From NCBI GenBank assembly GCA_944389185.1, contig CALXLL010000005.1, forward strand, positions 1-50,514: 50,514 nucleotides of DNA, read 5' to 3'. The stretch comes from an uncultured Alphaproteobacteria bacterium (lineage in GTDB: Bacteria > Pseudomonadota > Alphaproteobacteria > Rs-D84). How positions within the stretch are numbered: the stretch's first letter is position 1; each line of letters opens with the position of its first letter. The position numbers were made by a program, and so were the translations under genes. Positions 2 to 43,554 of the stretch are shown in pieces. The notes below the pieces were generated by a model. The model saw only the letters and a program-made list of their open reading frames with translations. It did no database searches and was not told the origin of the DNA.

Positions 2-157
2 ACTATTTCACCGACACAGATTAGATATATATCTCAGATATTCGGTGATACTGTGGCAGACGCAATGAACATGCGAACTTTTGCGCAAAAGATTCGTGAA
101 ATTGCCGAATATTCTTTGCGTAAAGCCTTAAATGCCGCCAAACACCAAGGTGAATAG
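2..157 (+). CDS. 3' end of an unidentified gene
   Basis: An open frame enters from the left edge and ends at TAG 155-157, giving 51 residues that finish in LNAAKHQGE. The fragment looks helical and mixed-charge (MRTFAQKIREIAEYSLRKAL) with no signal peptide, Cys cluster or recognisable motif. A strong rho-independent terminator follows 22 bases later, which supports it being the last gene of a plus-strand unit. I do not recognise the family and the upstream sequence needed to do so is outside the window. Confidence 0.6.
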   Translation, partial: TISPTQIRYISQIFGDTVADAMNMRTFAQKIREIAEYSLRKALNAAKHQGE

Positions 158-178
158 ATATAATTATATCTTATAAAT

Positions 179-208
179 AAAGCCCCTTAACGAAAGGGGC
201 TTTTTTTT
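179..208 (+). terminator. rho-independent terminator
   Basis: AAGCCCCTT (180-188), loop AACGA, AAGGGGCTT (194-202), then a T run to 208. It ends the gene cut by the left edge. The T run is on the plus strand, but A residues on the other side could give weak termination for the convergent giant gene. Confidence 0.9.
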
Positions 209-222
209 GTATATGCATATTT

Positions 223-3200
223 TTACATACTATCATCATATACTGAATATGTAGTAGAACCAGATTTTATTTTTAAGCTTCCTTTTCCTGACGTTCCCAT
301 ATTACCATAGAATATGTCACCGTTTATGCTTACGTTAAGAGAAGGTGTAGTTTTCTTTTCGCTTCGCAGGTATATTTTTTCATCTCCTATATTCAGCACA
401 CGTCCGCAATCTGCGGGTTCATCGGCACCCGCACCGAAACCAATAGTGGTTAATCCTGCTTCACAAGCAATTCTTGTTAAAGAATCTTCAAGAGAATAAT
501 AACCGCTTCCGACTGAAACGCACGCTTTGGTTTTCATATCTTCTATACTAGAAGCTTTTGAAGTGGTCCCATTCGGAGAATAATACCCCCCCACACAACT
601 ATCTATTCTATGAGCCATACATTGACTAGCAGAACCAGTAACCCCATAGTCGTCATCTGTAGAAGAAAGACCGCAAGAAACAAGATATTCACCGTTTGGA
701 TCGTCTTCTTCTATATAAGCCCTGCAACCATATTTACTATCTTGAATATCATCTTCGGCCCAATACCAATAACTTGTCACTCTATCTTTATATACGGTTG
801 CTGTCGGGCAAGTTTTACAGCTTACCAAGCCTTCGGTATCTGCATACGTAGCACCACTACATGCAATACTTCCTCCAATAGTTGTTCCTGTATTATAATA
901 TACTGTCACGCCACCTGGGCAATAATAACCTGTTGGGCATATTGTTTCCCCGGCTTTCGCTGTCGCTACATATTTACCATCCGTAGTTGTTAAATAACAA
1001 CTATTTACACTTGCAGTTCCAGCCGCACTTTTAGTATACAAACCATTAGTTCCGCTACTGCAAGTCGGACAAGCATTACCATTCTTATAATAATTTGTCG
1101 CACATTTTGATACAGCACATAAATTACTTACGCTGTTTGCCGACCATGTTGCAGTCGTCCAAGTACTGACACCTGTCGCATTAGAACAATTCGCGTTACA
1201 GCTTGTTTGACCGGCTGCGCTTGTGGTCTTCCCGCTTTGGCAAGCAATACAAGCACTGGCACCCGCCGCACTATACGAACCAACAGCACATGCAGAACAG
1301 CTATCTGTTGATGTACCACCAGTAGAACTTCTATATGTTCCTGCCGAACAATTTTGAGGTGCGTATTTTCCACCTAAGCAATATTTACCTGCTGGACAAA
1401 TTATACAATTACCACCAGAAAGCGAGTAACCACTAGAACAACCATTTATGGTGCATATATTGTCTACGCTATTTGGGGACCAAGTTGCAGTCGTCCAAGT
1501 ACCGGCACCCGTTGCATTAGAACAAGTTGCGTTACAGCTTGTTTGACCGGCTGCGCTTGTGGTCTTCCCGCTTTGGCAAGCAATACAAGCACTGGCACCC
1601 GCCGCACTATACGAACCAACAGCACACGCAACCCTAGCGGTTGTCCCACCAGTGCAATAATACCCACCAGTACACTTGGTGCAAGTCGCGCTTGCTGTCC
1701 CATTGCTAGATATATAATAACCAGCTTTTGCACTTACTGAATACGTCGTAGCAGGCCAAGCACTGCCACTATAAGCTACCGTATTCGTAGTAACAGTATT
1801 GCAACCACTTATAGTCTTTGATGGTCCTTTATATCTACATGTAGAAGAAGCATTATACGGTGATACAGAACTATATGTTCCTCCACTTACAGATACACCA
1901 GTTAATGAACTACACGCACTTCTACTACTTGTAGCATTTTGAGCTACAGTTTTAGAAGCAGATGTATAATATCCGCTACCTACACTTACACAACCACCAC
2001 CAGCAGTAGCGACGTATTCTCCTGCATCACACGTAACCTTGCAAGATGATACCCCCGCATGACTAGAAGCACTAGTTCCGCTGTTTCCATATCCATCCGC
2101 TGTATCACAAGATGTGCAGGACGCGGCACCAGCATCAGAATATTTATTGGTATCGCATACACTACAACTATAACTTGTCCCATAATACGCATTATGCGCC
2201 GCTTTATACGTTCCTGCATCACAAGTATCTAAACTAGTTCCACTGGTTCCAACTCTTACCTTACCCGCCGTCACAGGTAAATAACAACTTGTATTCTTAC
2301 TTTGACCTGTGCTTGTATTCGTATAACCAGTTCCTAAACTTGAACAAGCAGTGCGACCACCGGTTGTCGTTCCCGTATTGTAATATATCGTTATTCCACC
2401 AGGACACCAACCACCGGCAGCACATGTCACTTCACCGGCATTCTCAGTCGCTACATATTTCCCTGCAGTCGTAGTTAAATAACAGCTATTCACACTAGTC
2501 GTCCCAGCCGCACTCTTCGTGTATAAACCATCTGTCCCACTGCTGCATGTCGGACAACTATTACCACTCTTATAGTAATTAGCCGAACATGTCGATACTG
2601 TGCATAAGTTACTTACGCTGTTCGCTTTCCAAGACGGTGTCGCCCAACTACTTAAACCACTTATAGAACTACATGATATACAACTGCTTGACCCCGTAGT
2701 CCCAGTGCTGCTTGTGGTCTTACCGGCACCACATACAGTGCATGCACTGGCCGTCCCTGTGCTATACGACCCTATCGCACATTTAGTAGCCGCAGCTGTC
2801 CCACCACTGCAATAACTTCCAGCAGGACATGCAGAACATGACGTCCCTTTTACATAATATTTAGGACTAGCACTAAGAGCCGTATTTACACTAGACGAAC
2901 CCCAAGTCGTTGAAGAAGTCGCAGTCTGCTTTAAATTACCACTAGAACAGTTGCTCGGAGTAGGGCTTACTTGAACACAGCTTGTATAACTTGTCCAACC
3001 AGTTCCACTGCTATTTTTCTTACTCCAACCGCTTGTTAACGCAGGACAGCTGCTGCAGCTGGATACAGAACCATATTTCACTGTATGCGAACCTTTATAA
3101 GTCCAATTAGGACATGTCTTAGCACTGCTTGCATTCTTACTTGCTACATACTTTCCACTTAAAGAATTAGTATAACATGCAGAAGCACCGCCTGTATTAC

Positions 3201-6200
3201 CATTATTTGAATTAGGATAAAATCCACTTGCCAATCCAGAACATGCAGGACAGGTAACACCACTTACATAATAGCCAGACTTAGCTGTAACTGCTGCCGG
3301 TGATTTTGTGCAATTAGAAGGCGTGCACGTAGTATCTGATATACCATAATAATCTCTATACGTGCATGAACCTGGCGAACACGAATTCCAAGACGTTACA
3401 CTATAGCAATTTGTTGGAACCGCACCATTTACTTGCGAACCATACTTCGTCTTAGTTGCATAACAATAATTACTGTTTGCCGCACCATTATCTGATGACG
3501 GATAACTGGAATTAAACGAACTACACGATGAACATGCTTGACCGTTACCACCACTATACCCGTAATATCCACTTTTACCAGTTGTCGTATCTGCCGTCTT
3601 TGTGCAATTTGCACTATTTGAAGAACATCCACTCTTTATAGTCCCATCACCAGTTCCAGCACTGTTTGAATACGCTACATAATCACAAGCCGGTTTTGAA
3701 CATGAATTCCATGCAGTTACGCTATAACAATTTGTTGGTGTGCTGCCGTTTACTTGACTTCCTGTCCACGCACGAGATTTAGTGTTACTATAACATTGAG
3801 TTATCAAACTTGAACCAGAGCCAGAGTTAGGATAATTAGACGGACAGTCTTTTTTACCGCCTGTGCTGTTATAATATACTTTTATACTGCCAGGACAATA
3901 ATCACCAGCAGAGCAGGTTGAAAATGCTGTTGCTTTCGCACTGGCCAACCATTTCCCAGCAGATGTTGTTGCATAACAATCAGTAGAAGCATCATATCCA
4001 CTATCAGATGCGGTATATATTGCTCCCAAAGAAGTACAAGATTTTCGAGAAGTTGCAGCTGTTGTATCTACATAATATCCACTTCCTGCACTTGAACATG
4101 CCACAGTTCCGGCGCTTGACTTATAAGTTCCCTTTGCACAGGCATTACAAGCACTTGCGCTTGTCCCACCATACCCAGCTTTACATACGCAAGATGAAGA
4201 CGATGTCGCGGTCGTGGTCGTAGTCGTCGTATTAGAATATACACTTGTGCAGGCAGTTCTTGTTAAAGAACCATCGCCGGAAAAATATCCAGTTCCCGCA
4301 GGAACACAAACAGAAGCCTCAAGATTATTTATGCTTGATTTCCAAACACTGGAACTTCCATTAGGAGCATAATAACCAGAAGAACATTTGGATATACTTG
4401 ATGCCATGCATTGTGTAGAACCACCACCGATTCCATAATCTTCATTAGAAGAAGATAAAGCACATGACATTGAATAAGTTCCATGTGCGGACGAACTAAG
4501 TGATATAGTGGCCCTACAACCATATTTACTATCTTGAATACCGTCTTCTGCCCAATACCAATACCTTGTCACTCTATCTTTATATGTTGTTGCAGTTGGG
4601 CAAGTTTTACAGCTTGCCAACCCTTCCACATCAGCATAAGTAGCACCGGTGCAAGCACTGCAACTAGATATAGACCCATATTTGACAGTATGGGCACCTT
4701 TAAAATAACCTGGCTTACAATTTGTAGCACTACTTGCATTCTTACTGGCTACATATTTACCGCTTAAAGAATCTGTATAACAGTCACTTGCCCCATCAGA
4801 ACCTGCCGCACTGTTCGGATAAAACCCATCTGCCAGCGACGAACACGACTGACGCGTCGTAGTCCCACCAGGACAATAATATCCGCTTGTGCACTGACTA
4901 CAAGTACTAGACGTCCCTGATCCAGTTACGTATGCACCAGGTTTAGCGTTAAATGCACTTGATACCGTCGCTGTCCCCCAAGTAGTTGAACTTGCTCCAA
5001 CTTGTTTCAATTGACCAGAACTACAATAACTACTTACCACCGTAGCCGATTTTGTCTGATAACAACTACTATAACTTGTCCAACCGGTCCCAGTCCCTCG
5101 TGTCCAACCACTTGTTTGTGCAGGACAGCTGCTGCAGCTGGATACAGAACCATATTTTACTGTGTGGGAACCTTTATAAGTCCAATTAGGACATGTCTTA
5201 GCACTACTCGCTTTCGCACTGGCTACATATTTACCGCTTAAACTGTTCGTATAACAGTCATTTGCCGCATCAGAACCAGCAGCACTGTTCGGATAAAATC
5301 CATTTGCTAAAGTTGAACAAGCAGTGCGACCACCGGTTGTCGTGCCTGTATTATAATATACCGTCACACCTCCTGGACAATAACCACCAGCAGTACATGT
5401 CTCTTCACCAGCTTTAGCGGTTTCCACAAATTTACCCTTAGTCGTCGTTAAATAACAACTGTTTACACTTGACGTCCCAGCAGCACTCTTCGTGTATAAA
5501 CCACCTGTCCCACCACTGCACGTAGAACGACCCTGAACCCCTCCATTATATGTCCACGTCCCACCTCCGCAGTAATAGTTCGCTGTGCACGTCGTGCATG
5601 TAACACCATTTAAATACTTCCCTTCTGAACAACTATAACTTCTTGCCTTACACGAAGTACTTACACTTGTCCCACCAGCACTGCCAGTCGCAGTAAAACT
5701 TGTGGTCGTGTTCGTCCCTCCAGATTGACTATATCCGCTGTCACACGTAACACTACATCTTGGAGCATTAGAACTTGGCGTAGTTATAGTCCCACTACCA
5801 TTCGTTACACTACATGTAGGTGTTACCCAAACTGCATACAACGTATCCGCCGCTGTAAATGTCATACTAGTAGAACCACTAGTCGCCGTGCTGGTAGTTG
5901 CCCACCCCTTAAATATCTTATTTCCATTCGTTATGTTGTTAGTGCTACTATTCCATGACGGCAATGTGCACGCAGTATTATAATAACACGTTATAGTCCC
6001 ACTAGTCGTCCCAGTAGCACCACCAGATGTCCCAGTGCCACCGTTCTTGTTTAACGTTATCGTTATAGGCGATGCCGTGCACGCACCAGTTATATTAGTC
6101 CCAGAACCGGTATAGTTCGTGTTACATGTATAGCGTGCATACCACGTCGCAGCAGAACTTACATTACAACTACTTGATGTGCTTAACGCACCAGACGATG

Positions 6201-6921
6201 TTATACATTGCGTTCCCCCACTAGACGCATTAGTAGTATACGTCCCGGCGTACGTAGCATTAGTCTTGCTGGGCTTAGTCACACTTGTTATAGATGTGCT
6301 GCAATTACTATTACTATACCATGTAGCAGAACCTGTCTTTTTATATACTGCAGTGGTCCCACCGCTACCGCCACGTGTAGTGTTGTTTAAGGTTATCTTA
6401 TTACAGTTTGCACTACACGTATACGATGATGCTCCACTACTATTTGCACTTCCACCTTTCGTATATCCAGTAGAACATGTGCTTATCGCACACTTGTTAG
6501 TCACTGTGTTTGCAGTCCACGTAGCATCCGCCCATGTGCTGGCACCACTGACATTAGAGCAGCTCGTATCACAACTTGTTTTACCCGTCCCACTTGTGGT
6601 CTTTCCATCTTGACAAGCTCTACATGACGATGCACCAGCAGAACTATACGAGCCTACTGCACAAGCAGTACAACTTGATGATGATGTTCCACCAGTAGCA
6701 TTTCTATATGTCCCCGCAGGGCAATTTTGCGGTGCGGTCGTTCTACCTGTGCAATACTTACCAACAGGACAAACAAGACAATCTTCCCCGGATAAATAAT
6801 AACCGGGCTTACAGCTTAGATACGTTTTAGTGCAAGAATACCCCGCTGCAAAAGAACTGTTGCTAAAAAAAACAATTATTAAAGACGCTAAAAGGCCCAG
6901 GAAACCCAACCTTTTTCTCAT
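223..6921 (-). CDS. giant Cys-rich secreted repeat protein
   Basis: A 2232-residue protein starting at ATG 6919-6921 with a good ribosome site (AGAGAGGAAGT). Residues 1-25 form a Sec signal peptide ending SSFAA. The mature part is dominated by Ser/Thr/Gly and regularly spaced Cys, with many units of the type CPAGTYRNATGG, CTACAVGSYSSAGASSC and CQDGKTTSGTGKTSC. These resemble the ephrin-receptor/GCC2-GCC3 type of Cys repeat. Residues about 285-365 look like a Listeria-Bacteroides (InlB B-type) repeat ending FTAADTLYAVW. A block of about 125 residues containing YWYWAED and SKYGCRA occurs twice, near 767-890 and again near the C-terminus. The last ~50 residues lack Cys. It is probably a cell-surface or released adhesin-like protein; that is inference. 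No sortase, autotransporter or anchor motif was seen. Confidence 0.85.
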   Translation of the reverse strand: MRKRLGFLGLLASLIIVFFSNSSFAAGYSCTKTYLSCKPGYYLSGEDCLVCPVGKYCTGRTTAPQNCPAGTYRNATGGTSSSSCTACAVGSYSSAGASSCRACQDGKTTSGTGKTSCDTSCSNVSGASTWADATWTANTVTNKCAISTCSTGYTKGGSANSSGASSYTCSANCNKITLNNTTRGGSGGTTAVYKKTGSATWYSNSNCSTSITSVTKPSKTNATYAGTYTTNASSGGTQCITSSGALSTSSSCNVSSAATWYARYTCNTNYTGSGTNITGACTASPITITLNKNGGTGTSGGATGTTSGTITCYYNTACTLPSWNSSTNNITNGNKIFKGWATTSTATSGSTSMTFTAADTLYAVWVTPTCSVTNGSGTITTPSSNAPRCSVTCDSGYSQSGGTNTTTSFTATGSAGGTSVSTSCKARSYSCSEGKYLNGVTCTTCTANYYCGGGTWTYNGGVQGRSTCSGGTGGLYTKSAAGTSSVNSCYLTTTKGKFVETAKAGEETCTAGGYCPGGVTVYYNTGTTTGGRTACSTLANGFYPNSAAGSDAANDCYTNSLSGKYVASAKASSAKTCPNWTYKGSHTVKYGSVSSCSSCPAQTSGWTRGTGTGWTSYSSCYQTKSATVVSSYCSSGQLKQVGASSTTWGTATVSSAFNAKPGAYVTGSGTSSTCSQCTSGYYCPGGTTTRQSCSSLADGFYPNSAAGSDGASDCYTDSLSGKYVASKNASSATNCKPGYFKGAHTVKYGSISSCSACTGATYADVEGLASCKTCPTATTYKDRVTRYWYWAEDGIQDSKYGCRATISLSSSAHGTYSMSCALSSSNEDYGIGGGSTQCMASSISKCSSGYYAPNGSSSVWKSSINNLEASVCVPAGTGYFSGDGSLTRTACTSVYSNTTTTTTTATSSSSCVCKAGYGGTSASACNACAKGTYKSSAGTVACSSAGSGYYVDTTAATSRKSCTSLGAIYTASDSGYDASTDCYATTSAGKWLASAKATAFSTCSAGDYCPGSIKVYYNSTGGKKDCPSNYPNSGSGSSLITQCYSNTKSRAWTGSQVNGSTPTNCYSVTAWNSCSKPACDYVAYSNSAGTGDGTIKSGCSSNSANCTKTADTTTGKSGYYGYSGGNGQACSSCSSFNSSYPSSDNGAANSNYCYATKTKYGSQVNGAVPTNCYSVTSWNSCSPGSCTYRDYYGISDTTCTPSNCTKSPAAVTAKSGYYVSGVTCPACSGLASGFYPNSNNGNTGGASACYTNSLSGKYVASKNASSAKTCPNWTYKGSHTVKYGSVSSCSSCPALTSGWSKKNSSGTGWTSYTSCVQVSPTPSNCSSGNLKQTATSSTTWGSSSVNTALSASPKYYVKGTSCSACPAGSYCSGGTAAATKCAIGSYSTGTASACTVCGAGKTTSSTGTTGSSSCISCSSISGLSSWATPSWKANSVSNLCTVSTCSANYYKSGNSCPTCSSGTDGLYTKSAAGTTSVNSCYLTTTAGKYVATENAGEVTCAAGGWCPGGITIYYNTGTTTGGRTACSSLGTGYTNTSTGQSKNTSCYLPVTAGKVRVGTSGTSLDTCDAGTYKAAHNAYYGTSYSCSVCDTNKYSDAGAASCTSCDTADGYGNSGTSASSHAGVSSCKVTCDAGEYVATAGGGCVSVGSGYYTSASKTVAQNATSSRSACSSLTGVSVSGGTYSSVSPYNASSTCRYKGPSKTISGCNTVTTNTVAYSGSAWPATTYSVSAKAGYYISSNGTASATCTKCTGGYYCTGGTTARVACAVGSYSAAGASACIACQSGKTTSAAGQTSCNATCSNATGAGTWTTATWSPNSVDNICTINGCSSGYSLSGGNCIICPAGKYCLGGKYAPQNCSAGTYRSSTGGTSTDSCSACAVGSYSAAGASACIACQSGKTTSAAGQTSCNANCSNATGVSTWTTATWSANSVSNLCAVSKCATNYYKNGNACPTCSSGTNGLYTKSAAGTASVNSCYLTTTDGKYVATAKAGETICPTGYYCPGGVTVYYNTGTTIGGSIACSGATYADTEGLVSCKTCPTATVYKDRVTSYWYWAEDDIQDSKYGCRAYIEEDDPNGEYLVSCGLSSTDDDYGVTGSASQCMAHRIDSCVGGYYSPNGTTSKASSIEDMKTKACVSVGSGYYSLEDSLTRIACEAGLTTIGFGAGADEPADCGRVLNIGDEKIYLRSEKKTTPSLNVSINGDIFYGNMGTSGKGSLKIKSGSTTYSVYDDSM
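1193..1290. repeat. 98-bp exact direct repeat, copy 1 (in giant gene)
   Basis: Bases 1193-1290 read the same as 1529-1626. The repeat encodes a Cys-rich unit containing CIACQSGKTTSAAGQTSC. Exact DNA identity over 98 bases in an otherwise diverged repeat protein points to recent duplication or gene conversion. Confidence 0.85.
1529..1626. repeat. 98-bp exact direct repeat, copy 2 (in giant gene)
   Basis: Second copy of the 98-base unit at 1193-1290, in the same frame. Recombination between the two would remove or add 336 bases (112 codons) without breaking the frame. Confidence 0.85.
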
Positions 6922-7024: not shown

Positions 7025-7343
7025 ACAGACGAACGGAGCATAGCGGGGGTAGTTCCCTGAGGAAAGTCCGGACTGCGTGGGACAGCATATCGGCTAATGA
7101 CCGAGCGGGGCGACCCGACGATTAGAGCAACAGTGACGAAACGATTAAATTCGAGTGAAACGGGCAATCTCTATGCGCAGCAACTTCAAATAGGTTCCTT
7201 TTAACGTGTCCCAAGTTAGGAACGGGTAGAAGGCTTGACATTTTGTGGTAACACATTATGCAGACTAATTATGCTCGCTACCTGTGTATAATGTTAATTA
7301 CATAACATAGGCAGAACAGAATCCGGCTTATATGTTTGTCTGT
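7025..7343 (+). ncRNA. rnpB: RNase P RNA, bacterial class A
   Basis: The catalytic RNA that removes 5' leaders from precursor tRNAs. The conserved core GAGGAAAGTCCGGACT lies near 7058-7074, and the 3' core ACAGAATCCGGCTTA near 7316-7330. The ends pair as the P1 helix, ACAGACGAAC (7025-7034) with GTTTGTCTGT (7334-7343), with one G-U pair. The length of about 319 nt is on the short side for class A. It is transcribed divergently from the giant Cys-rich gene and convergently with tolA. An intrinsic terminator follows directly. Confidence 0.95.
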
Positions 7344-7371
7344 AAAAAAGCGTCATCAAGACGCTTTTTTT
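7344..7371. terminator. bidirectional terminator, rnpB / tolA
   Basis: GCGTC (7350-7354), loop ATCAA, GACGC (7360-7364), flanked by AAAAAA on the left and TTTTTTT on the right. It serves rnpB on the plus strand. Its T run overlaps the tolA stop codon (7370-7372), so it probably also ends the minus-strand tol operon. Confidence 0.85.
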
Positions 7372-8167
7372 ACATAACTTTACCTTGCGTTGGATAAAAA
7401 GTTAATTGTATCTTTTCCCACTTTTCAAACTCGTTTTCAGGCAACATCTTGAAAGGTTGACAAACATCAATCGCACTTTCTATGGTGCTTAATACATAAG
7501 CAAAAGCAGGATCTGTTTCTGCACGTGCCGCCGATTCAAACCATACGTCACGAACAGTCCCATTTTTACGTAAAGTTAAATGAGCAACCGCACGAATATC
7601 AGATATATCAGAACGACCTTTATCTATTACCCAACATCTTGTCATCGCAACTCTTAACGCGTCTATCACAGACACAGTTAAAGTTCTATCCAAAGATACA
7701 ACCTCTCTATTAACCCTGACTACTTTTTTCTTTTTCGGAGCAGGGACATCTTCTTTTGCAGATTCTTTTTTTTCTTCGGCTTGTTGTTCTTCTGTTATAT
7801 CTTGTTTAGGTTCTTCTTTTATGTCGTCTTTCGGCTCTTCTACAAGACTTGGTGTTTCTATGGGTTTAGATTCTTCGGCAATTTGTTCTTGTTGTTCTTC
7901 TTGAGCCGGCGCTACTTCTTGCAAAGATTCTTTACTTGGTTCTTCTTGCTTTGTCGCATCAGCGTTAACATTATATAAAACAGTATCGTCGCCTTTTACC
8001 TGAATATCATTTAAGTCTATTTCTAGAATCTCTATTCTATCTGGTGCGACTAATTTTGCCCTATCTATCACTATTGCAAAAGAAGTCACCATTACGGCAA
8101 CCAAAGCCAAATGTCCGACAACAGACATTAAAAAGTTTTCCGAAGAAAATCTGTCAGATAATACCAT
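7370..8167 (-). CDS. tolA: TolA-like cell envelope protein
   Basis: 265 residues. An inner-membrane anchor sits at about 15-34 (HLALVAVMVTSFAIVI). It is followed by a Glu/Lys/Pro-rich periplasmic spacer (about 70-150) and a folded C-terminal domain (about 155-265) with two Cys (RCWVIDKG and DVCQPF). TolA links the TolQR motor to Pal and TolB during outer-membrane constriction. The gene starts 3 bases after the tolR stop. The spacer is short compared with the enterobacterial protein. No tolB or pal follows: rnpB and a terminator take their place. The assignment rests on domain layout and position; TonB is the main alternative. Confidence 0.85.
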   Translation of the reverse strand: MVLSDRFSSENFLMSVVGHLALVAVMVTSFAIVIDRAKLVAPDRIEILEIDLNDIQVKGDDTVLYNVNADATKQEEPSKESLQEVAPAQEEQQEQIAEESKPIETPSLVEEPKDDIKEEPKQDITEEQQAEEKKESAKEDVPAPKKKKVVRVNREVVSLDRTLTVSVIDALRVAMTRCWVIDKGRSDISDIRAVAHLTLRKNGTVRDVWFESAARAETDPAFAYVLSTIESAIDVCQPFKMLPENEFEKWEKIQLTFYPTQGKVM

Positions 8168-8170
8168 AGT

Positions 8171-8572
8171 CTAGCTATCCAATTGAGTTCTTAAACCTAC
8201 GCGTTGAAAACCTGCGTCCTTTAATTTTCCCATAATTGACATAACTGCGCCATAATCCGCACTTTTATCACCGTTTATCATTATAGTCAGCTGAGGATTT
8301 TCACCGCGCATAGCAACCGCTTTTTTCACTACTTCTTCAGGGCTTAACTGCATTTCGCTTAAAAAATATTGACCGGCCGCATTAACGCTTATTTGAATAG
8401 CATGATCATTTCCAGTAATAGTAGAATGGCCAGCTTTCGGTAAATCCAAATCTATTCCTGTCGTCATCATAGGGGTCGTCACCATAAATACAGCCAATAA
8501 TACCGTCATAACGTCAATCATAGGCGTTAAAGAAATGCTGGCATCTGAATTACGATATCTTCTACGAGCCAT
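8171..8572 (-). CDS. tolR: TolR/ExbD family protein
   Basis: 133 residues, the usual length. There is a short cytoplasmic start, a single membrane helix at about 14-35 containing the ion-path aspartate (LTPMIDVMTVLLAVFMVT), and a periplasmic ExbD-type domain (LDLPKAGHS, QLTIMINGDKSADYG). It works with TolQ as the proton-driven stator that energises TolA. The start is ATG 8570-8572, preceded by AAGGATTTTATA. It sits 10 bases after tolQ and 3 bases before tolA in the same operon. Confidence 0.93.
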   Translation of the reverse strand: MARRRYRNSDASISLTPMIDVMTVLLAVFMVTTPMMTTGIDLDLPKAGHSTITGNDHAIQISVNAAGQYFLSEMQLSPEEVVKKAVAMRGENPQLTIMINGDKSADYGAVMSIMGKLKDAGFQRVGLRTQLDS

Positions 8573-8582
8573 TATAAAATCC

Positions 8583-9077
8583 TTATTTATGTTTGCTTCT
8601 TAACTCTTTACACGACTCTGTTAAAGAATCATATAAATCATCAGACTTTTTTGAAAAATATTGATAAGCAATAGCCGCCGGAACCGCAGCAATTAATCCC
8701 AAAGCCGTAGTTCCCAAAGCAGTTGCCAACCCTGGTGCAATTACCCCGATGCTTACAGACTGATTTATACCAATAGAAGAAAACGAATCCATAACGCCCC
8801 AAATGGTTCCAAACAGACCTATAAAAGGCGCAACATAAGCAACCATAGACAAAAACCATAAGTTTTTATCAAAAGGCCTTATAAGTCTATCGGCTATGAC
8901 CGATAAATTATCGCTATTTTTTACTTTAACAGGATTTCGTTTATTAATATGCCACAGACGGATTTTTTCTATTATAATCGCCCAAGAAACTACGCTGCCG
9001 AAAACCAATACTATGGATATAAAAAGCGTCATTATATCCCCGGTAAACAGTGCACCAAGTGTAAAATTATTTGTCAT
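8583..9077 (-). CDS. tolQ: TolQ/MotA-family proton channel, short form
   Basis: 164 residues against roughly 230 for typical TolQ. The first helix (about 13-35), the family core PFIGLFGTIWGVMDSF and the third helix (IAPGLATALGTTALGLIAA) are present. The cytoplasmic loop between helix 1 and helix 2 is cut to about 35 residues, and the C-terminal tail is short. The ATG directly abuts the ybgC stop (TAGATG), so translation is probably coupled. Gene order with tolR and tolA makes tolQ more likely than exbB. No frameshift was seen, so the shortening looks genuine. Confidence 0.88.
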   Translation of the reverse strand: MTNNFTLGALFTGDIMTLFISIVLVFGSVVSWAIIIEKIRLWHINKRNPVKVKNSDNLSVIADRLIRPFDKNLWFLSMVAYVAPFIGLFGTIWGVMDSFSSIGINQSVSIGVIAPGLATALGTTALGLIAAVPAAIAYQYFSKKSDDLYDSLTESCKELRSKHK

Positions 9078-26627: not shown

Positions 26628-27734
26628 ATGAAGCATATAAGCAAAATATTTTTTTTATTATATATTTGTTATTTGTTTATTCCTACAAATGCCTTTTCTT
26701 TAAGTTGGGACGACCCCAATGTTAACCCTGTTCAATCGATAAGTGACCAACGTTGGAGGGACGCTAACACCGGTAGATTTATAACTCCCCCCACTGTAGA
26801 ACCAACACAACCAACCACACCGACTACTTCACCCACTCCAACTACGGCCCCGACACCAAGCACACCAACTACGACACCGACCACACCAGCACAACCCGTT
26901 GCTCCTACACAACAACAAAAGCCCAGTCAACCACAAAAAACAACAAAAACGAGCGCAAAAGCAGCTGTTGCAAAAGGTGCTATGGGTGCTGTAGGGCTGG
27001 CAACAGGGACTATCGGTTTGATAAACTCAGTGTCCGGCAACCAAGCTCATACCTGGGGCGATGTTGCACAGGGTGCCATAAGCGGTGCTACGGCTGCGGC
27101 TGGTGGCGCCGCTATAATAAACGCGATTCCTGTTATAGGGAATATATCTTACGGCATAACTGTCGCCGGTGGTGCAATACTTGGCGGGCTTATCGCAGGT
27201 TCTCAACTTTTTTCTGAAACAGACTGTTTGACAGATCCCGTCACAGGTCTTTTTACTTGTTGTAATACTGAATTTAATAAAGGTGAAAGACAAGTAGAAA
27301 TAGGTGGTTATATGTTTTGTGGTTCAGAAACACCCGAAACAAACGGAACTCAAATTGTTCAAGTGCAAGCACAGGTTCGTCAATGTCTTCAAGGCGGGCA
27401 ACCAACCAAAGCTGAAAAATGGTGGCAAAGACCTTTCAAAGATGACTCTTGGGCACCTATTTGTGTTGAAAGATTTTGCGATGAAAATAATAAACCTGTC
27501 GCAGGTATAGAAAATTATATTACTTATGTTCCCGATAAGACAAACGTTTGCTGGAACTGGAATTGCATTGACGGCTATGTTAAACAAGGCAATACTTGCA
27601 CACTTAATGGCAACGCGGTAACACCAGATAAATTAAAAGATTACAATTATTGGATTAATCTTTTGCAACAAACTGCAAAATCTATTCGCCAAGCTTGTTC
27701 TGATGTCATGCAAATTAATCAGGGCACGCTATGA
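26628..27734 (+). CDS. secreted Pro/Thr-rich protein with Gly-rich helix and Cys domain
   Basis: 368 residues, unrecognised. A signal peptide (ending TNAFS) is followed by a Thr/Pro linker at about 55-105, built from repeats of the TPTTTP type. A Gly/Ala-rich hydrophobic stretch at about 115-190 (GAMGAVGLATGTIGLI, AAGGAAIINAIPVIGNISYG) resembles a glycine-zipper membrane segment. A C-terminal Cys-rich domain contains LFTCCNTEF, VCWNWNCIDGYVKQGNTC. The linker and zipper suggest an envelope-spanning or membrane-inserting protein, which is inference. It overlaps the next gene by 4 bases (ATGA). Confidence 0.75.
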   Translation: MKHISKIFFLLYICYLFIPTNAFSLSWDDPNVNPVQSISDQRWRDANTGRFITPPTVEPTQPTTPTTSPTPTTAPTPSTPTTTPTTPAQPVAPTQQQKPSQPQKTTKTSAKAAVAKGAMGAVGLATGTIGLINSVSGNQAHTWGDVAQGAISGATAAAGGAAIINAIPVIGNISYGITVAGGAILGGLIAGSQLFSETDCLTDPVTGLFTCCNTEFNKGERQVEIGGYMFCGSETPETNGTQIVQVQAQVRQCLQGGQPTKAEKWWQRPFKDDSWAPICVERFCDENNKPVAGIENYITYVPDKTNVCWNWNCIDGYVKQGNTCTLNGNAVTPDKLKDYNYWINLLQQTAKSIRQACSDVMQINQGTL

Positions 27735-29479
27735 TGAAGCTGATAACAAGCATTATATTAACGTTATGTATAGCACTTACTGTAAAAGCAGAAGGAATTA
27801 ACCAGACAATTCAGCCAGAAGTTGATAACACTTCACAATCAGAAACGATAGATATTAAACAAATCGTTAACGAACCGGTTTCAAAAACAGAATGCGCAAC
27901 TAACGTTTTTGCAACCGCTTTGCAAACAAATGCTGATAAAATATCTGAATACAGCTCGGAAACAGAAGTCCAACAATGGATATATGAAACTTTTGCTTTA
28001 CCGGACGTCTTAAATCAAGCTCTACAATGCCCAGAGTTTCAAAACTTATCAGATACAGATTCTATTCGCTTATTGCCTATTTTATACACTTTTCCAAACG
28101 GTCGTCAGATAAACATAAGTTATGAAACTCAGCCTCAAATACTTAAACAAAGAATCATTATAGAAAATAAAAGAGATTTACCAGATAATAACCCAAACCC
28201 GCGAATTGGTGACATAAATGATAATACGGTATGGACAAACGTTGACCCGGCTTGGTATGCAATAATGGTCGTTCAATCAGGTAGCCTTGATAACTTCGTA
28301 GGTCCCGATAAAAACAATACAATATCTTTGAAATACATATCGGATAACATAGATAAACTTTACCCAAAAAATAATATGTGCACATCTAAAAGTGCTTTGG
28401 CAAAGGACAAAGCGATGATAAATCGCGCTATGCATAATACCGTAAGTTTAGAAGATGACACAAACGATTATTATGTTGCAGGCGATGCAAACTTAGAATG
28501 GATAGGTTATACGGAAATAGCTTTAGACATGGCAATAACCGTTCTTACAGCTGGTAGCGGGACTATAATCGCAGGAAGCGCAAAAGCCGCAAGGGCTTCT
28601 AAAACACTAAAAAATCTTACGACCACAATTAAAGAACTTTCAAAAACAGAATCCGTAACGAAATACATACAAACAACTAATAAGATTTCCAAACTTACAG
28701 AAGAGCTTTCAACAATAGACCGCGTCACCGATACCGCGCGCTATGAAGCAAGAGCCGGCGAACTGGATAATTTAAGAAAGGCTTTGACAGAAATAGAAAA
28801 AGCAGATGACGTAAAAGATTATAAAAGAGCCATGCAAAGTTATTCTACTATCAATCAATATAGACATGCGTTAAGGGGCTTAAAAATACCGCAACGTGGT
28901 AATGTAATAGCACGAACAGCAAGGTTAGCAAAAGCTATACGTGCCGCAAATACAGGTGCAAGCAAAATAAATAAAGGTGCGAAGATTGCTAGGGCCAGTA
29001 TGAAATCAGGCAAAATAAAAGACTGGTTATACCATTCAACGATGAGGAATATATCAAAACTAGGTAAGGCATTAGAACACACAGGCTTAATTTATGGTGC
29101 TATTAATTTAATTGGTAATATGTATGACTTTACGGAAACCAGCACAGGTGATTTTACCAATAATATAGATTTTTCGCCTTTATTATTGTTATCTGCGGAC
29201 GACCTGCAAGGTCAAGAAAACGTTGTAAATTATGGTATGTGGTTGATGTGGGCAGGTGATTCTATGTCGGCGGCAGATGATGACGCTGCTTATTTACAAG
29301 CTATGGATTTTGCGGCCAAGTTTCATGAAGATTTAGACGATTTGCAAACCGAAGAAAATAATTTTCCTTGTGACGTTGATATATATGTAGTTCGCCCAAT
29401 TTTAAGAAATCCTGACACACCAGAAGCATCTATATATTATCTGATAATGAACGATATACCTTGGACAACATCAAGATAA
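27731..29479 (+). CDS. secreted/membrane helical protein of unknown function
   Basis: 582 residues with a short signal peptide (LITSIILTLCIALTVKAEG). The start is either ATG of ATGATG at 27731. The N-terminal ~240 residues are mixed with a few Cys. A hydrophobic segment near 260-285 (IALDMAITVLTAGSGTIIAG) precedes a long basic helical region (about 285-460, KSGKIKDWLYHS). The C-terminal part is acidic (NIDFSPLLLLSADD, WAGDSMSAADDDAAY). Layout resembles large secreted effectors, but no catalytic motif is visible. Translation is coupled to 26628 by a 4-base overlap. Confidence 0.7.
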   Translation: MMKLITSIILTLCIALTVKAEGINQTIQPEVDNTSQSETIDIKQIVNEPVSKTECATNVFATALQTNADKISEYSSETEVQQWIYETFALPDVLNQALQCPEFQNLSDTDSIRLLPILYTFPNGRQINISYETQPQILKQRIIIENKRDLPDNNPNPRIGDINDNTVWTNVDPAWYAIMVVQSGSLDNFVGPDKNNTISLKYISDNIDKLYPKNNMCTSKSALAKDKAMINRAMHNTVSLEDDTNDYYVAGDANLEWIGYTEIALDMAITVLTAGSGTIIAGSAKAARASKTLKNLTTTIKELSKTESVTKYIQTTNKISKLTEELSTIDRVTDTARYEARAGELDNLRKALTEIEKADDVKDYKRAMQSYSTINQYRHALRGLKIPQRGNVIARTARLAKAIRAANTGASKINKGAKIARASMKSGKIKDWLYHSTMRNISKLGKALEHTGLIYGAINLIGNMYDFTETSTGDFTNNIDFSPLLLLSADDLQGQENVVNYGMWLMWAGDSMSAADDDAAYLQAMDFAAKFHEDLDDLQTEENNFPCDVDIYVVRPILRNPDTPEASIYYLIMNDIPWTTSR

Positions 29480-30389: not shown

Positions 30390-33077
30390 ATGAAAAACAT
30401 ATTTTCTTTTTTATGTTCTTTAATCGTTATGAGCATTGGTTTCCCTACTAATGCGGCTGTTCGTGATGAAAATGCAACAAACCGTCAAAGTAATCAAGCG
30501 CAAGTTTCTCAACGAACGACAAATACTTCTAATACCGTTACGCGAAGTGCAACAAATCAAAATATCGTTTCCAGAACGGCTGACACCGGACAAAAAGTCC
30601 CGGCACAAACAACCGCCAGAAGTGCTCTTTCAAGCAGAACAACAGGGAACTTAACGAACCGAAATCTTAGCGACACAAACACAAAACAAATAATTAATCG
30701 TTCTGCAACAACAGCGCAATCTGTTACACCAGCCCCATCTGGCTTGATATCAAGGGCTGCCAGCGACACAACAACCCAAACAACAGAAACAAGAACAGGC
30801 GCAGAATACGAACGTTGTAAGAACGCGTATTTCACCTGCATGGATCAATTTTGTATGCTTAAAAACGACGATTATAGACGTTGTTCTTGCAGTGACAAGG
30901 TTTATGATTTGGCAGACGCAAAAAAGACGCTGCAAGATGCCGGTAATCAATTAACTGTCTTTACAGAAAATCTGGATGTAGTTGGTATGACTGCCGCCCA
31001 AGCGGAAGCTATGCGAACAGAATCAGAAGGTGAATCTGCGTTAATGTCAGATTCTTCTGCGTCAAAAGCTTTATTACAAGCTATAATGAACTCAATTCGT
31101 GGCAAAGATTCTTATGTCGGTGGAAAATACACAGACTTAAACAGCATAAATATAGCTTTTGATACGACTAACGCCTTTGGCACAATGGACGCAGGACAGG
31201 CAATTGCCGCTTACAACGGTCAAAATCTATACAGTGCTGTATACCCGCAATGCAGGGCAGCGGTCGCAGCAGATTGTAACGACGCGTCTTTACAACGTGC
31301 TATTACAGCTTATTTAATGGCAATAGAACAAGACTGCAACACCGTTCAGACCGCCATAGAAACCACCCAAAAAGACCTGAAATCAGCTATTCGTGAAGGC
31401 AGTGCAATGTTAGACCTTGCACGTGTTGAAAATCGTCAAAAACACAACTCTTCTGACTTTACGACATGCTTAAATGAAGTCGAAGCTGCGGTATTAAGCG
31501 AACAAGTATGCGGTGCAGGATATAAGAAGTGCCTAGATAACGGTGAATTCATAGATGTTTCTACGGGTGCTCCGATTGCTGGTGTGAAAAACTTTTATGA
31601 ACTGGAACAATTGCTTACCTTTAACGAAGGTGAAGATGCGGTAAATCAAAAGCTATCAAAAATATCTTCAAACCGACCCTTCGTGCAAAACTTTGAAAAT
31701 AAAGTCAAAAAGTTTGCAGAACCAGCACTTGATAAATGCGTTGAAATTGCCGACGACGTGTGGGCAGAATACTTAGACAAAGCAATGTTGGACATATATT
31801 ATGCTCAAAAATCAAAGGTTTCTGAAATAAAGCAAGGTTGTTTTGATTTTATTGCTTCATGTTACGAAAACACCGATGCGGCTTTAACGTCCGCAATGAA
31901 AGATTTAATAGGTGACCCAAGTCTTATTCTTCAACCAGATAAAATAACTTTATCAAACCAGTTATGTCAAGATTATATAGATTCTTGTAATCTTATGTTC
32001 GACAATAACATAATAGAAGAATACGTCAACAATCGCCAAGATACAGACGTCTTAGCAGCCTGTCGTGCAGTAGCAAAACAATGTATTGATAGTTTTGGTG
32101 GAACAAATTATGAAAATTACTACTACCCATATAGTGGAATATTTAAAACGGGTAATGCTTTAAGCTGGTTTACTTTATATGAATATACATTGGATGAAGA
32201 AGGTAATCTTGTTCAATCTGAAGAACCCGTATCAGAATGTGCTAAGCAGTTGAAAGAAGTGTCTTCTTGCAGTTCTTCGGATATTCTTGAGCAAGCTTTT
32301 GGTGGGTTTGACGTAATTGTCGCAACAAAAGTAAAATCAGACGGAACTAATTTGTATTATCTTGATCCTGAAGGGAACTATAACGGGTCTGCACTGGGTC
32401 AATATAAAAAATATGGCGTATTAAACACAACTAAAACTAATGTAACTGGTGTCGGTGAAAAATATGTTCTTGACCACCACAAAGCACGTCCTACGGGGGT
32501 AGCAACCGAAGTATACAATCAAATTATAGACATACTGAACACGCAGTGCGACAATGTTCAAGGTAATTTCATAGAATTACAATTTATCAAAGATATTTAT
32601 AAAGAAGACGATTTATGTGTGTCTGCATTTACAGATTCATTAGAATATGGCGGTGCTGGCGATAATAATTTAAGTCCTAACTTAGTCAAATTATACGGAA
32701 TAGGTGAAGGTGAAAATATGTGTCCTAGGGATTATGACATAAATGTAGACACGCAATCTTGGGGCGCTTGCTTGTGCTGGGAAAACGGCGGAAGAAGAAG
32801 TAAATGGGGTAAATCTGCCAAATGCGTTACTTCACTTCCTATCAATACGGAAGCTTTGGATAAAAATTGCAATGTAACGACACTAAGCGGTGCAAAAATA
32901 GAAGAAACTTCAAGTAGTTTCTCTAGTGACAATTGGTGCAACCAAACAATTCGGTCAACTTACGACCAAGTATGTCCACTGAATGGAACGACAGAAGGAG
33001 GTTTTTGTGCAACTAAGAACACAGACGGCACAAAAACGATATTAAATAACTTACCAAGAAGTAAGAACTATCAATAA
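30390..33077 (+). CDS. large secreted Cys-containing protein of unknown function
   Basis: 895 residues with a signal peptide (SFLCSLIVMSIGFPTNA). Residues ~25-125 are a Ser/Thr/Gln/Asn-rich low-complexity linker. A Cys-rich segment follows (YERCKNAYFTCMDQFC, RRCSCSDKVYDL). The body is helical with paired Cys (CGAGYKKCLDNGEF, QGCFDFIASCYENTD, QLCQDYIDSCNLMF). The end contains ACLCWENGGRR and ends in a disulfide-type domain. It recalls the secreted set at 25736-29867 in style, though the tRNA cluster intervenes. The start has AAAAGAG just upstream. Function unknown. Confidence 0.78.
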   Translation: MKNIFSFLCSLIVMSIGFPTNAAVRDENATNRQSNQAQVSQRTTNTSNTVTRSATNQNIVSRTADTGQKVPAQTTARSALSSRTTGNLTNRNLSDTNTKQIINRSATTAQSVTPAPSGLISRAASDTTTQTTETRTGAEYERCKNAYFTCMDQFCMLKNDDYRRCSCSDKVYDLADAKKTLQDAGNQLTVFTENLDVVGMTAAQAEAMRTESEGESALMSDSSASKALLQAIMNSIRGKDSYVGGKYTDLNSINIAFDTTNAFGTMDAGQAIAAYNGQNLYSAVYPQCRAAVAADCNDASLQRAITAYLMAIEQDCNTVQTAIETTQKDLKSAIREGSAMLDLARVENRQKHNSSDFTTCLNEVEAAVLSEQVCGAGYKKCLDNGEFIDVSTGAPIAGVKNFYELEQLLTFNEGEDAVNQKLSKISSNRPFVQNFENKVKKFAEPALDKCVEIADDVWAEYLDKAMLDIYYAQKSKVSEIKQGCFDFIASCYENTDAALTSAMKDLIGDPSLILQPDKITLSNQLCQDYIDSCNLMFDNNIIEEYVNNRQDTDVLAACRAVAKQCIDSFGGTNYENYYYPYSGIFKTGNALSWFTLYEYTLDEEGNLVQSEEPVSECAKQLKEVSSCSSSDILEQAFGGFDVIVATKVKSDGTNLYYLDPEGNYNGSALGQYKKYGVLNTTKTNVTGVGEKYVLDHHKARPTGVATEVYNQIIDILNTQCDNVQGNFIELQFIKDIYKEDDLCVSAFTDSLEYGGAGDNNLSPNLVKLYGIGEGENMCPRDYDINVDTQSWGACLCWENGGRRSKWGKSAKCVTSLPINTEALDKNCNVTTLSGAKIEETSSSFSSDNWCNQTIRSTYDQVCPLNGTTEGGFCATKNTDGTKTILNNLPRSKNYQ

Positions 33078-40732: not shown

Positions 40733-40763
40733 AAAAAATCCGCCGTTATGGCGGATTTTTTAT
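40733..40763. terminator. bidirectional terminator, LRR 1 / leuS
   Basis: AAAAAATCCGCC (40735-40746), loop GTTAT, GGCGGATTTTTTA. It lies between the convergent genes and overlaps the leuS stop codon. Confidence 0.9.
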
Positions 40764-43162
40764 TTCTTTACTACAAAGTTCACAAGCTTGTTCGGAACAA
40801 CTATGGTCTTTATAATCTCGGCCCCGGACAGCTGTCTGGACGCACTGGCTTTCGCCATTTCTATCAAGTCGGCTTCTGATACCGATACCGGTGCTTGAAA
40901 TACACCCGCACGCTTGCCGTTAACCGAGGCTACTATTGTCATTTCCGTCTTCGCTAATTTTGCTTCGTCATAGGTCGGCCAAGGCTCAAATACCAGCATG
41001 TCTTTATGTCCCAGCTTTTCCCATATCTCTTCCGTTAAATGTGGTGCGAACGGATTTAACATTTGAATCAAAGGCTCGTAAGCTTTGCGCGGCATCTTAC
41101 CGCCGCTGAAATGATTCAAAAACTCCATCATAGCGGAAATAGCCGTGTTAAAACGCATGTTATCCAGACGCTCGGTCATATCCGCAATTAACTGATTAAG
41201 CAATCTTTCTTGCTCTGGCGTCAAATCTTCATCCGTTAAGTTATCCGACAAGGCTTCTATCCTGCCCAAGAATCTTTGAACACCAGCCAGCGCACCACCA
41301 GACCAGATTACGTTTGAATCCCAAGGCCCCAACGACAGAATCGTCACACGTGAAGCGTCCGCACCTACGGCGTCCAGCATTTCGTCTACTTGAAAACCGT
41401 TACCTTTGGACTTGGACATCTTCTTACCGTCCGTTCCAAGTAATAAACCGTTCGTAGTTCTTTTCTTATACGGTTCCGGCGTATTAACCAAGCCTAAATC
41501 ATACAGGGCTTTATGCCAGAATCTTGAATAAATCAAGTGACGGGTATTATGCTCGTTTCCACCGTTATAGTGATTTACAGGCATCCATTTTGTCATCTGT
41601 TCCGCCGAGCAAAAAGCTTTATCATTACGTGGGTCTAGATAACGCAGATAATACCAAGAAGACCCCGCCCATTGTGGCATCGTATCTGTTTCACGTTTGG
41701 CAGGTCCACCGCATACAGGGCAGGTAGTATTAACCCAATCGGTCGCTTTTGCCAAAGGACTTTCACCGTCTTCTGTTGGTTGATAATCTTCCATAAAAGG
41801 TTGCATCAAAGGAAGCTCGGATTCCGGTATCGGTTGCCAACCGCATTTTTCACAGTATACCAGCGGTATAGGTTCACCCCAATACATCTGACGAGAAAAC
41901 CCCCAGTCCGTCATTCTAAAACGAACTTTCGGTCTTATAAAACCACCTTCTTCGCCTTTCTTGATAACCGCGGCGATTGCGTCTGCTTTATTCAAGCCGT
42001 CCAAAAAGCCCGAGTTTATATGAGCACCGTCTTCTTCCCAAGCTTTTTCGGAAATGTCACCACCAGCCAAGACTTGTATGATAGGTAAGTCAAACTTTTT
42101 TGCGAAGTCATAATCTCGCTGGTCATGGGCCGGCACCGCCATAATAGTCCCATGCGCATAATTAACCAGAACATAGTCTGCCACAAAGATAGGAATCTGG
42201 TTACCGTTAAAAGGGTTAACGGCGGTTAAACCTTCCAGCTTTACGCCTGTTTTTTCTTTTGTGACGTCTGTTCTATCAAACTCTGATTTAGCGGCAGAAT
42301 CTTTTATATATTTGCGAACTTCGTCTGCGTTTTTAATCTTACCTTCGTCCAGCCATTTAGCCAGCAATTTATGTTCAGGTGAAATAGCACAGAAAGTGAC
42401 GCCGAAAATAGTATCTGGTCGCGTAGTATAAACCGTCATAATGTCGTCACCGACCTTAAAGTCGACGTCTGCACCTTCCGAACGTCCAATCCAATTAGTT
42501 TGGTCTCGTTTAACTTTTTCTGGGTAATCGACCAAGGCCAAGTCGTCCAGCAAACGCTGAGCATATTTAGTAATTGCAAGATTCCACTGCATTTTTTCGC
42601 GTATTTCTACTTCACCGTTGCAGCGGTTGCACTTACCGTCTTCCAGCTCTTCGTTTGTCAGGGTAGTCCGACAATGAGGGCACCAGTTCATCGGAAGCAT
42701 TGATTTGTAAGCTAAACCGGCTTTAAAGAATTGTATAAACATCCACTGCGTCCATTTAATAAAGCCTGGATCCGAAGTCGCAATCTGAGACGACAAATCA
42801 ATAGACCATCCCATTTTTAACATACTGTTGGTAAACTTATTAACCAGTTCTTTTACTACCAAAGAAGGGTGGCGTCCGATTTTAGTAGCATAATTTTCAG
42901 CGGAAATCCCCAAAGAATCAAATCCCATAGGGTATAAAACGTCAAAACCGCGCATACGTTGATATCTTGCCATAACGTCGCACCCAGTATAATTCAGCAT
43001 ATGACCGCCGTGCAAGCCTTCACCGGACGGGAAGGGGAACTCGGCCAGCATATAAAAAGGCTTTTTCTTACCGTCGTTTTTCGGTGTAAAAGTATTTTCT
43101 GTTTGCCAACGTTTTTGCCATTTAGCTTCACGTTCTTTGATTTTTGTTATATTTTCCGCCAT
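40760..43162 (-). CDS. leuS: leucyl-tRNA synthetase
   Basis: 800 residues from ATG 43160-43162 (MAENITKIKE); a GTG three codons upstream has no better ribosome site. Class I landmarks: GLHGGHMLNYTG (HIGH-type), KMSKSKGN, and a Zn-type CPHC...CNRC region near residue 170. The CP1 editing domain is present (TTRPDTIFG, AVPAHDQRDYDFA). The nucleotide-site segment reads PMGFDSLGISAENYATK, different from the common MGWDAFGLPAENAA, and the threonine-rich editing strand reads NYAHGTIMAV rather than YGTGAVM. It lies between two surface-gene leaders and its DNA looks less AT-rich than its neighbours, so horizontal transfer is possible. Confidence 0.95.
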   Translation of the reverse strand: MAENITKIKEREAKWQKRWQTENTFTPKNDGKKKPFYMLAEFPFPSGEGLHGGHMLNYTGCDVMARYQRMRGFDVLYPMGFDSLGISAENYATKIGRHPSLVVKELVNKFTNSMLKMGWSIDLSSQIATSDPGFIKWTQWMFIQFFKAGLAYKSMLPMNWCPHCRTTLTNEELEDGKCNRCNGEVEIREKMQWNLAITKYAQRLLDDLALVDYPEKVKRDQTNWIGRSEGADVDFKVGDDIMTVYTTRPDTIFGVTFCAISPEHKLLAKWLDEGKIKNADEVRKYIKDSAAKSEFDRTDVTKEKTGVKLEGLTAVNPFNGNQIPIFVADYVLVNYAHGTIMAVPAHDQRDYDFAKKFDLPIIQVLAGGDISEKAWEEDGAHINSGFLDGLNKADAIAAVIKKGEEGGFIRPKVRFRMTDWGFSRQMYWGEPIPLVYCEKCGWQPIPESELPLMQPFMEDYQPTEDGESPLAKATDWVNTTCPVCGGPAKRETDTMPQWAGSSWYYLRYLDPRNDKAFCSAEQMTKWMPVNHYNGGNEHNTRHLIYSRFWHKALYDLGLVNTPEPYKKRTTNGLLLGTDGKKMSKSKGNGFQVDEMLDAVGADASRVTILSLGPWDSNVIWSGGALAGVQRFLGRIEALSDNLTDEDLTPEQERLLNQLIADMTERLDNMRFNTAISAMMEFLNHFSGGKMPRKAYEPLIQMLNPFAPHLTEEIWEKLGHKDMLVFEPWPTYDEAKLAKTEMTIVASVNGKRAGVFQAPVSVSEADLIEMAKASASRQLSGAEIIKTIVVPNKLVNFVVKK

Positions 43163-43554
43163 TTTTAACACCTATTTACTTATAAAAACACAAAATGAAT
43201 GATAAAATTAAATGCTCAGATTTTCAAGCGAAATATACAAACGCCCTTATAAGCCAATACGTTTCGTCCAAACATATTTTTTCTTGCAATAAAAAGCACA
43301 AGTGTATTAAAGTGATATTGTCAGCAGGTGTTCTGCTGATGGGGTGTGAGAACCCGTTCCTTAGCGTCGGAATAGATAGTTATGGCGCTTTTGCGCCGTT
43401 TTTAATATTACGACGGAAAACAACTCCTGATTCTGCATGGGTCAGGAGGGCTTGTGAATATATTGAATAAGCAGCACAATTCTAAGGATTGTTCTCAACC
43501 TCCTGACCACCAGTTACGCTTGGTGGTTTTTCATTTGGAAAAACGGGGGTAAAA
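43163..43554 (+). promoter_or_regulatory. repeated surface-gene leader, copy 2
   Basis: The leader proper is 43281-43554, preceded by ~118 bases with no gene. Switch elements: CTCCTGA (43424-43430), TCAGGAGG (43442-43449), CCTCCTGA (43499-43506), CCACCA/TGGTGG (43507-43526) then TTTTT. An upstream hairpin GGCGC/GCGCC is followed by GTTTTT (43384-43402). An open frame runs through the left part from GTG 43312 to 43470 without stops in this copy only. Confidence 0.75.
43454..43552 (+). CDS. possible leader peptide coupled to LRR gene 2
   Basis: GTG 43454 follows AGGAGG by 4 bases. It encodes 32 residues (MNILNKQHNSKDCSQPP..., ending LEKRG) and stops at TAA 43550-43552, two bases before the LRR ATG. 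The frame covers the terminator-like hairpin. In copies 1 and 3 the same frame stops earlier (10 and 14 codons). Translation through it would melt the hairpin. No experimental support; could be fortuitous. Confidence 0.35.
   Translation: MNILNKQHNSKDCSQPPDHQLRLVVFHLEKRG

Follow-up and report, generated by a model that had tools for sequence, protein, structure and literature searches.

A giant cysteine-rich, exported-looking protein at a conserved locus carries a C-terminal domain shared across one alphaproteobacterial family

We found that a 6.7-kb gene of an uncultured alphaproteobacterium encodes a giant modular protein with constant ends and a variable middle, which occupies a conserved chromosomal slot and ends in a domain (here called the tail) distributed throughout one bacterial family. 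On balance, we consider it probable that the protein is Sec-exported, disulfide-bonded and located at the cell surface or in the envelope, with the tail acting as a shared attachment or targeting domain.

Results

An intact gene for a giant protein

The gene lies at one end of the window (the whole 50,514-nucleotide stretch of DNA that was analysed), 222 nt from the end of the contig.

223..6921, minus strand: giant Cys-rich exported-looking protein gene (ORF call, ATG start, 2232 aa)
6847..6921, minus strand: signal-peptide-like N-terminus, residues 1-25 (read by eye)
183..198, minus strand: terminator-like hairpin 3′ of the giant gene (pattern match only)

The frame is intact across 6.7 kb, with zero internal stops, and shows an ordinary coding pattern (GC3 of 0.278, against 0.25-0.31 in neighbouring genes). 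Because GC3 matches that of the neighbours, the overall G+C of 0.437 reflects the Ser/Thr/Gly/Ala/Cys-rich composition of the protein (S+T 32%, G 12%, C 6.9%, about 153 Cys), and we rejected a foreign origin of the gene, which the higher G+C might have suggested. The protein starts with MRKRLGFLGLLASLIIVFFSNSSFA followed by AGYSC, which reads by eye as a Sec/SPI signal peptide. The intact, ATG-started frame and this start agree with a preliminary description of the DNA, which had proposed a 2232-residue, signal-peptide-bearing chain that is exported. No lipobox was seen in the giant protein, the signal sequence having no Cys at the cleavage site (by eye), and Pfam and NCBIfam scans of it returned no sortase LPXTG motif with a TM tail, no C-terminal barrel and no known secretion domain.

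The tail is shared by unrelated exported-looking proteins

226..423, minus strand: conserved C-terminal domain, three β-hairpins, 'TTPSLNV..FYGNM..YSVYDDS' (sequence and profile searches, AF2)

The preliminary description had seen no known anchor and had noted a Cys-free C-terminus. The former is literally right, but it passed over the conserved module at 226-423; the C-terminus is not featureless, and its last ~60 residues are a conserved, mobile domain found family-wide. A single-sequence search found the tail in 32 of 59 relatives (the window's genome counted), and with a 37-row profile it was detected in 158 of 190 sampled genomes of the order: 145 of 149 from the genus, 13 of 23 from the family's other genera and 0 of 18 from the order's other families. 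No tail was detected outside the genus in a sample of 289 genomes of the class, or in viral contigs. Within the genomes sampled, the tail is confined to one family (Candidatus Enterousia and neighbouring genera). Public records carrying it, searched with an 8-row alignment, are named uncultured Alphaproteobacteria, Rickettsiales and Candidatus Enterousia, and these relatives of Ca. Enterousia bear out the alphaproteobacterial host.

Genomes of the genus hold a median of 3 tail copies, with a maximum of 22. Of 65 hits in the window and 58 public loci, 53 place the tail 0-10 aa ahead of the stop codon; in 8 proteins of this set, about 128-135 more residues follow it. A few divergent copies near the N-terminus (L066, L161, L137, L118 and L073) argue against a purely positional signal. 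A second domain of ~130 residues was observed after the tail in L160, L161, L163, L164, L166, L167, L169 and L170; the one tested (L166) had no Pfam match there.

Tail-bearing proteins range from under 150 to thousands of residues, and their passengers include Cys-rich chains, chains bearing F5/8-type-C and Flg_new domains, and a PKD/LRR-like passenger. The last of these carries the tail in L029 but lacks it in a protein of the window, which makes the modularity direct. This window protein (43555-45810, plus strand; 751 aa, exported-looking) has PKD-type and TFYNCSGLTGSIPENLF repeats and is 41% identical to L029 over 199 aa. At the extremes of size, we noted a 134-aa exported-looking protein that ends in a divergent tail and is paired with a small exported-looking ORF (L013 1237-1641, G000:C8), and a tail within a 6344-residue open frame, the longest seen (G388 contig 2, 74216-74431, minus strand). 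A signal-like hydrophobic stretch, called by eye and with a hydrophobicity rule, was present in the first 110 frame residues of 38 of 40 complete proteins with the C-terminal domain (CTD), compared with 48% of background ORFs; a C-terminal TM-like stretch was present in 0 of the 40.

We compared tails within genomes. Across six same-genome pairs, the final 200 nt of the genes, which cover the tail, were 92-100% identical, with most upstream bins far lower. Just past the stop, identity was 71-83% in five of the six pairs and stayed at 95% in L116/L117; the aligner is lenient (random pairs reach 73-75% on average and at most 86% in any bin), so that only contrasts count. The pattern in these few pairs looks like gene conversion keeping same-genome tails alike, as though each tail in a cell had to fit one shared partner.

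The tail is a conserved C-terminal β domain on unrelated, probably Sec-exported proteins, the arrangement of the CTDs of the type IX secretion system (T9SS). Rather than providing passive attachment, it could be a cleavable or recognized sorting signal, functionally akin to the type IX CTD, of a putative new outer-membrane export or anchoring machine. Its usual place close to the stop codon (53 of 65 hits), behind exported passengers of unrelated kinds, would fit such a signal, as would the near identity of tail DNA between paralogs of one genome and the presence of up to 22 client proteins per genome. However, the 8 proteins with about 128-135 residues beyond the tail count against it, the N-terminal copies do so mildly, and no T9SS sorting model of NCBIfam matched the giant protein or any of 52 C-termini. 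We regard the sorting signal, the strongest of the alternatives, as a possible but doubtful explanation, and prefer a shared attachment or targeting domain.

A conserved slot with constant ends and a variable middle

7025..7347, plus strand: rnpB, RNase P RNA, conserved 5′ slot boundary
7370..8167, minus strand: tolA-like gene, upstream side of the slot (no Pfam hit; named by its position after tolQ and tolR)
8171..8572, minus strand: tolR-like gene
8583..9077, minus strand: tolQ gene
2..157, plus strand: 3′ end of a small convergent gene, conserved 3′ slot boundary (cut by the contig end)

Toward the giant gene, the order is ruvB, an HD-type gene, a ybgC-like thioesterase gene, tolQ, tolR, the tolA-like gene and, on the other strand, rnpB; in L120 a secA-like ORF (named by eye) lies beyond the small convergent gene. 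Of the 59 CTD genes in public loci, 15 were flanked on both sides. Only rnpB was seen beside 5 and only the convergent gene beside 17, single boundaries often being due to contig ends; 22 had neither, some for lack of contig. The slot with its conserved boundaries recurs in many independent assemblies, one of which is a chromosome record (L122). The secreted chain of the preliminary description is real, yet it does not stand alone: it belongs to a large modular family with a conserved locus.

The slot proteins vary in length from 493 to 2232 aa. The mean pairwise identity of the slot orthologs is highest in the tail: it is 67% over the last 68 aa, compared with 41% over the 60 N-terminal aa and 24% for a chunk from mid-protein, so that, by sequence identity, the ends are conserved and the middle is not (BLAST coverage without composition correction was inflated by shared composition and was not used). 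The N-terminal similarity includes the motif AGYxC, common to the slot orthologs after the signal-like start.

The conserved place beside tolQRA, and an export-like N-terminus that comes without an outer-membrane barrel, lipobox or known secretion domain, would also suit a structural rod inside the periplasm or envelope, linked to Tol or the wall, with a tail that binds peptidoglycan or the inner face of the outer membrane. We consider such a rod unlikely, because rnpB lies on the other strand between the giant gene and tolA, tolB and OmpA/Pal-like genes are intact elsewhere, and many CTD genes are found at other places (the 22 of 59 with neither boundary, some of them for lack of contig). The extreme variation in length and in the middle is, moreover, unlike a structural part. 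The presence of tolB and the OmpA/Pal-like genes elsewhere in the genome likewise led us to reject the slot gene as a tolB replacement.

Elsewhere in the window, a leuS-like gene (40760-43171, minus strand) has a GC3 of 0.44, against 0.25-0.31 in the other genes measured, possibly reflecting a different origin or codon usage. Two large ORFs (30390-33077 and 27731-29479, both plus strand; 895 and 582 aa) have no Pfam match.

Predicted folds of the C-terminal region

4249..4656, minus strand: YWYWAED module copy 1, residues 756-891, about 135 aa (sequence comparison)
463..864, minus strand: YWYWAED module copy 2, predicted β domain (sequence comparison and AF2)

AF2, given alignments of the window protein and its relatives, predicted the tail confidently as a fold of three β-hairpins (pLDDT 86.6). 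The domain had no significant match in Pfam, NCBIfam or PDB sequences (E ≥ 1), nor among PDB folds (none at E ≤ 0.001). A model of the C-terminal 213 aa (mean pLDDT 88.9, pTM 0.82) confidently arranges a YWYWAED-type β domain, a Cys unit and the tail domain; a Foldseek search with it against PDB and viral models gave nothing at E ≤ 0.001, the nearest match being the Cys-rich domain of EphA2 (E 0.09). The second copy of the YWYWAED block, whose duplication had been described from the sequence, is predicted as a β domain in this model. The block is indeed present in two copies, which are 62% identical, but that account was incomplete: YWYWAED is a local variant of a ~130-residue module with conserved Cys that occurs in 20 of 96 genomes of the genus.

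Kinship of the tail with GroES was examined and rejected. Some members gave weak Pfam and NCBIfam matches to GroES (best E 0.002-0.004), and profile-profile alignment (hhalign) of the tail with the lineage's own GroES reached a probability of 44%. GroES was, however, picked post hoc from about 19,000 models, and the pairwise P of 2e-4 is hence not significant. Superposition of the AF2 tail on GroES gave TM scores of 0.14-0.22, an rmsd of 8-15 Å and E of about 9, that is, no GroES-like superposition and zero fold support. A diverged GroES (Cpn10)-type β domain is, therefore, very improbable.

Cys units and an InlB-type repeat in the middle

4036..4173, minus strand: best Ephrin_rec_like (PF07699) Cys unit (six-frame Pfam scan; more units along the chain)
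5818..6063, minus strand: divergent InlB B-type (Flg_new-like) repeat, residues about 287-368 (via the aligned stretch of a paralog)

The giant protein contains 14 units of the form C-x(1-4)-G-x-[YF]-...-CxxC, compared with 0.6±0.8 in shuffles (maximum 5 in 500), and 25 CxxC motifs, compared with 10.7±2.9 in composition-matched shuffles. The Cys arrangement is not a composition effect, which speaks against low complexity as its sole source. In the protein scan, PF07699 (Ephrin_rec_like) matched six stretches at 22.7 bits, just below the cut-off of 23.1, and in the six-frame scan one stretch (4036-4173) at 30.5 bits, above it; matches over the cut-off were also found in the paralogs and relatives L010, L161 and L162. 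The Ephrin-type units of the preliminary description are supported, with Pfam matches that straddle the cut-off. PF07699 matched in 12 of 289 alphaproteobacterial genomes, over the cut-off in 10, so the type is rare in the class, yet not unique to the lineage. The term 'eukaryote-like' describes a likeness between short Cys modules, which is no evidence of transfer from a eukaryote.

The InlB B-type repeat stood only in part. The Pfam protein scan gave zero direct PF09479 (Flg_new) matches to the giant protein at E ≤ 1. Two large paralogs are encoded in the same genome (2299 and 766 aa), however, and Flg_new exceeds its cut-off of 27 bits in both. The 2299-aa paralog (L009) is 72% identical to the giant protein over query residues 121-368, and PF09479 scored 30.1 bits in this aligned stretch and 30.4 bits in the second paralog. 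The giant protein, thus, likely has a divergent copy, as judged from the alignment; Flg_new is also over the cut-off in relatives. The longer paralog (G000:C9:7731-14630; L009 2732-9631) is Cys-rich, with the InlB-type repeat and without the tail domain. The tail is absent from both long paralogs, indicating that it is not needed by every such protein.

Oxidative folding, which the preliminary description had deduced from the Cys content, is plausible from gene content: five of five Enterousia genomes (G000, G346, G120, G003 and G024) have a DsbA match. DsbB (PF02600) was found in none of the same five, which leaves an oxidation route that is either incomplete or of another kind.

The interior of the gene contains long diverged direct repeats, and the genomes are mostly metagenome assemblies; the exact number and order of the repeats may, therefore, be wrong. 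That the gene itself is a low-complexity or assembly artefact is nonetheless hardly conceivable, given a 6.7-kb open frame with normal GC3, a Cys pattern far above shuffles, the same bounded slot in many independent assemblies (the chromosome record L122 included) and confident folds (pLDDT 86.6 and 88.9).

Discussion

In the mechanism that we favour, the Sec signal peptide would send the giant protein to the periplasm, where the Ephrin/TNFR-type Cys units would be oxidized, probably with DsbA. The middle (shuffled Cys modules, the InlB-type repeat and YWYWAED-type domains) may form the variable presenting or binding region of a rod, while the constant three-hairpin domain of the last ~60 residues would fix or sort the protein at the envelope through a partner common to all carriers. 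The protein may take part in contacts with host or partner cells.

Enterousia is placed in the GTDB order Rs-D84, a group with reduced genomes from which biosynthetic pathways are missing (PMC12306168); genomes of Ca. Enterousia and of the order are near 1 Mb, and these bacteria may depend on partner cells (PMC12306168). On proteins of the present kind, that paper mentions only 'hypothetical membrane-bound proteins', and our literature search found no descriptive paper on the tail domain or the giant proteins. The window's genome comprises 796 kb in 15 contigs, of which about 15 kb encodes three giant or large Cys-rich exported-looking proteins. This outlay suggests that interaction at the cell surface is a core function.

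The tail, present in 145 of 149 sampled genomes of the genus, is a marker for the exported proteome of uncultured Enterousia-type bacteria and a concrete target for finding how their proteins reach or stay on the surface. More tentatively, the three-hairpin tail might be the tag by which an undescribed system for export or surface attachment recognizes up to 22 clients per cell in a single family of reduced-genome gut bacteria of Rs-D84 (Ca. Enterousia), with gene conversion keeping the tails alike while the passengers diversify. The fixed slot, with its constant ends and hypervariable middle, also provides a clean setting in which to study the diversification of giant surface proteins.

Giant repeat adhesin-like surface proteins are huge and modular, carry an export signal and combine conserved ends with a variable middle. 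The giant protein differs from them in its predicted disulfide-rich Cys modules and in a terminal domain without a Pfam or NCBIfam match. It resembles InlB B-repeat (Flg_new, PF09479) surface proteins through its paralogs and relatives with over-cut-off repeats; the protein itself, in contrast, has one divergent, sub-detection copy and neither an LPXTG nor a GW anchor. With Ephrin_rec_like and TNFR-type Cys domains (PF07699; ELAPOR1-type PF23091) it shares repeated short Cys units, but it is bacterial, its chains are S/T/G-rich and run to thousands of residues, and it has no receptor kinase or TM segment. Finally, T9SS substrates are presented in PMC10202324 and PMC12618676 as many unrelated exported proteins with a common C-terminal domain. 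The type IX CTD proteins of Bacteroidota and the tail proteins have in common a Sec signal and a small conserved β domain at the C-terminus of otherwise unrelated exported proteins, whereas the tail belongs to an alphaproteobacterial family and is also found at the N-terminus or with ~130 residues after it.
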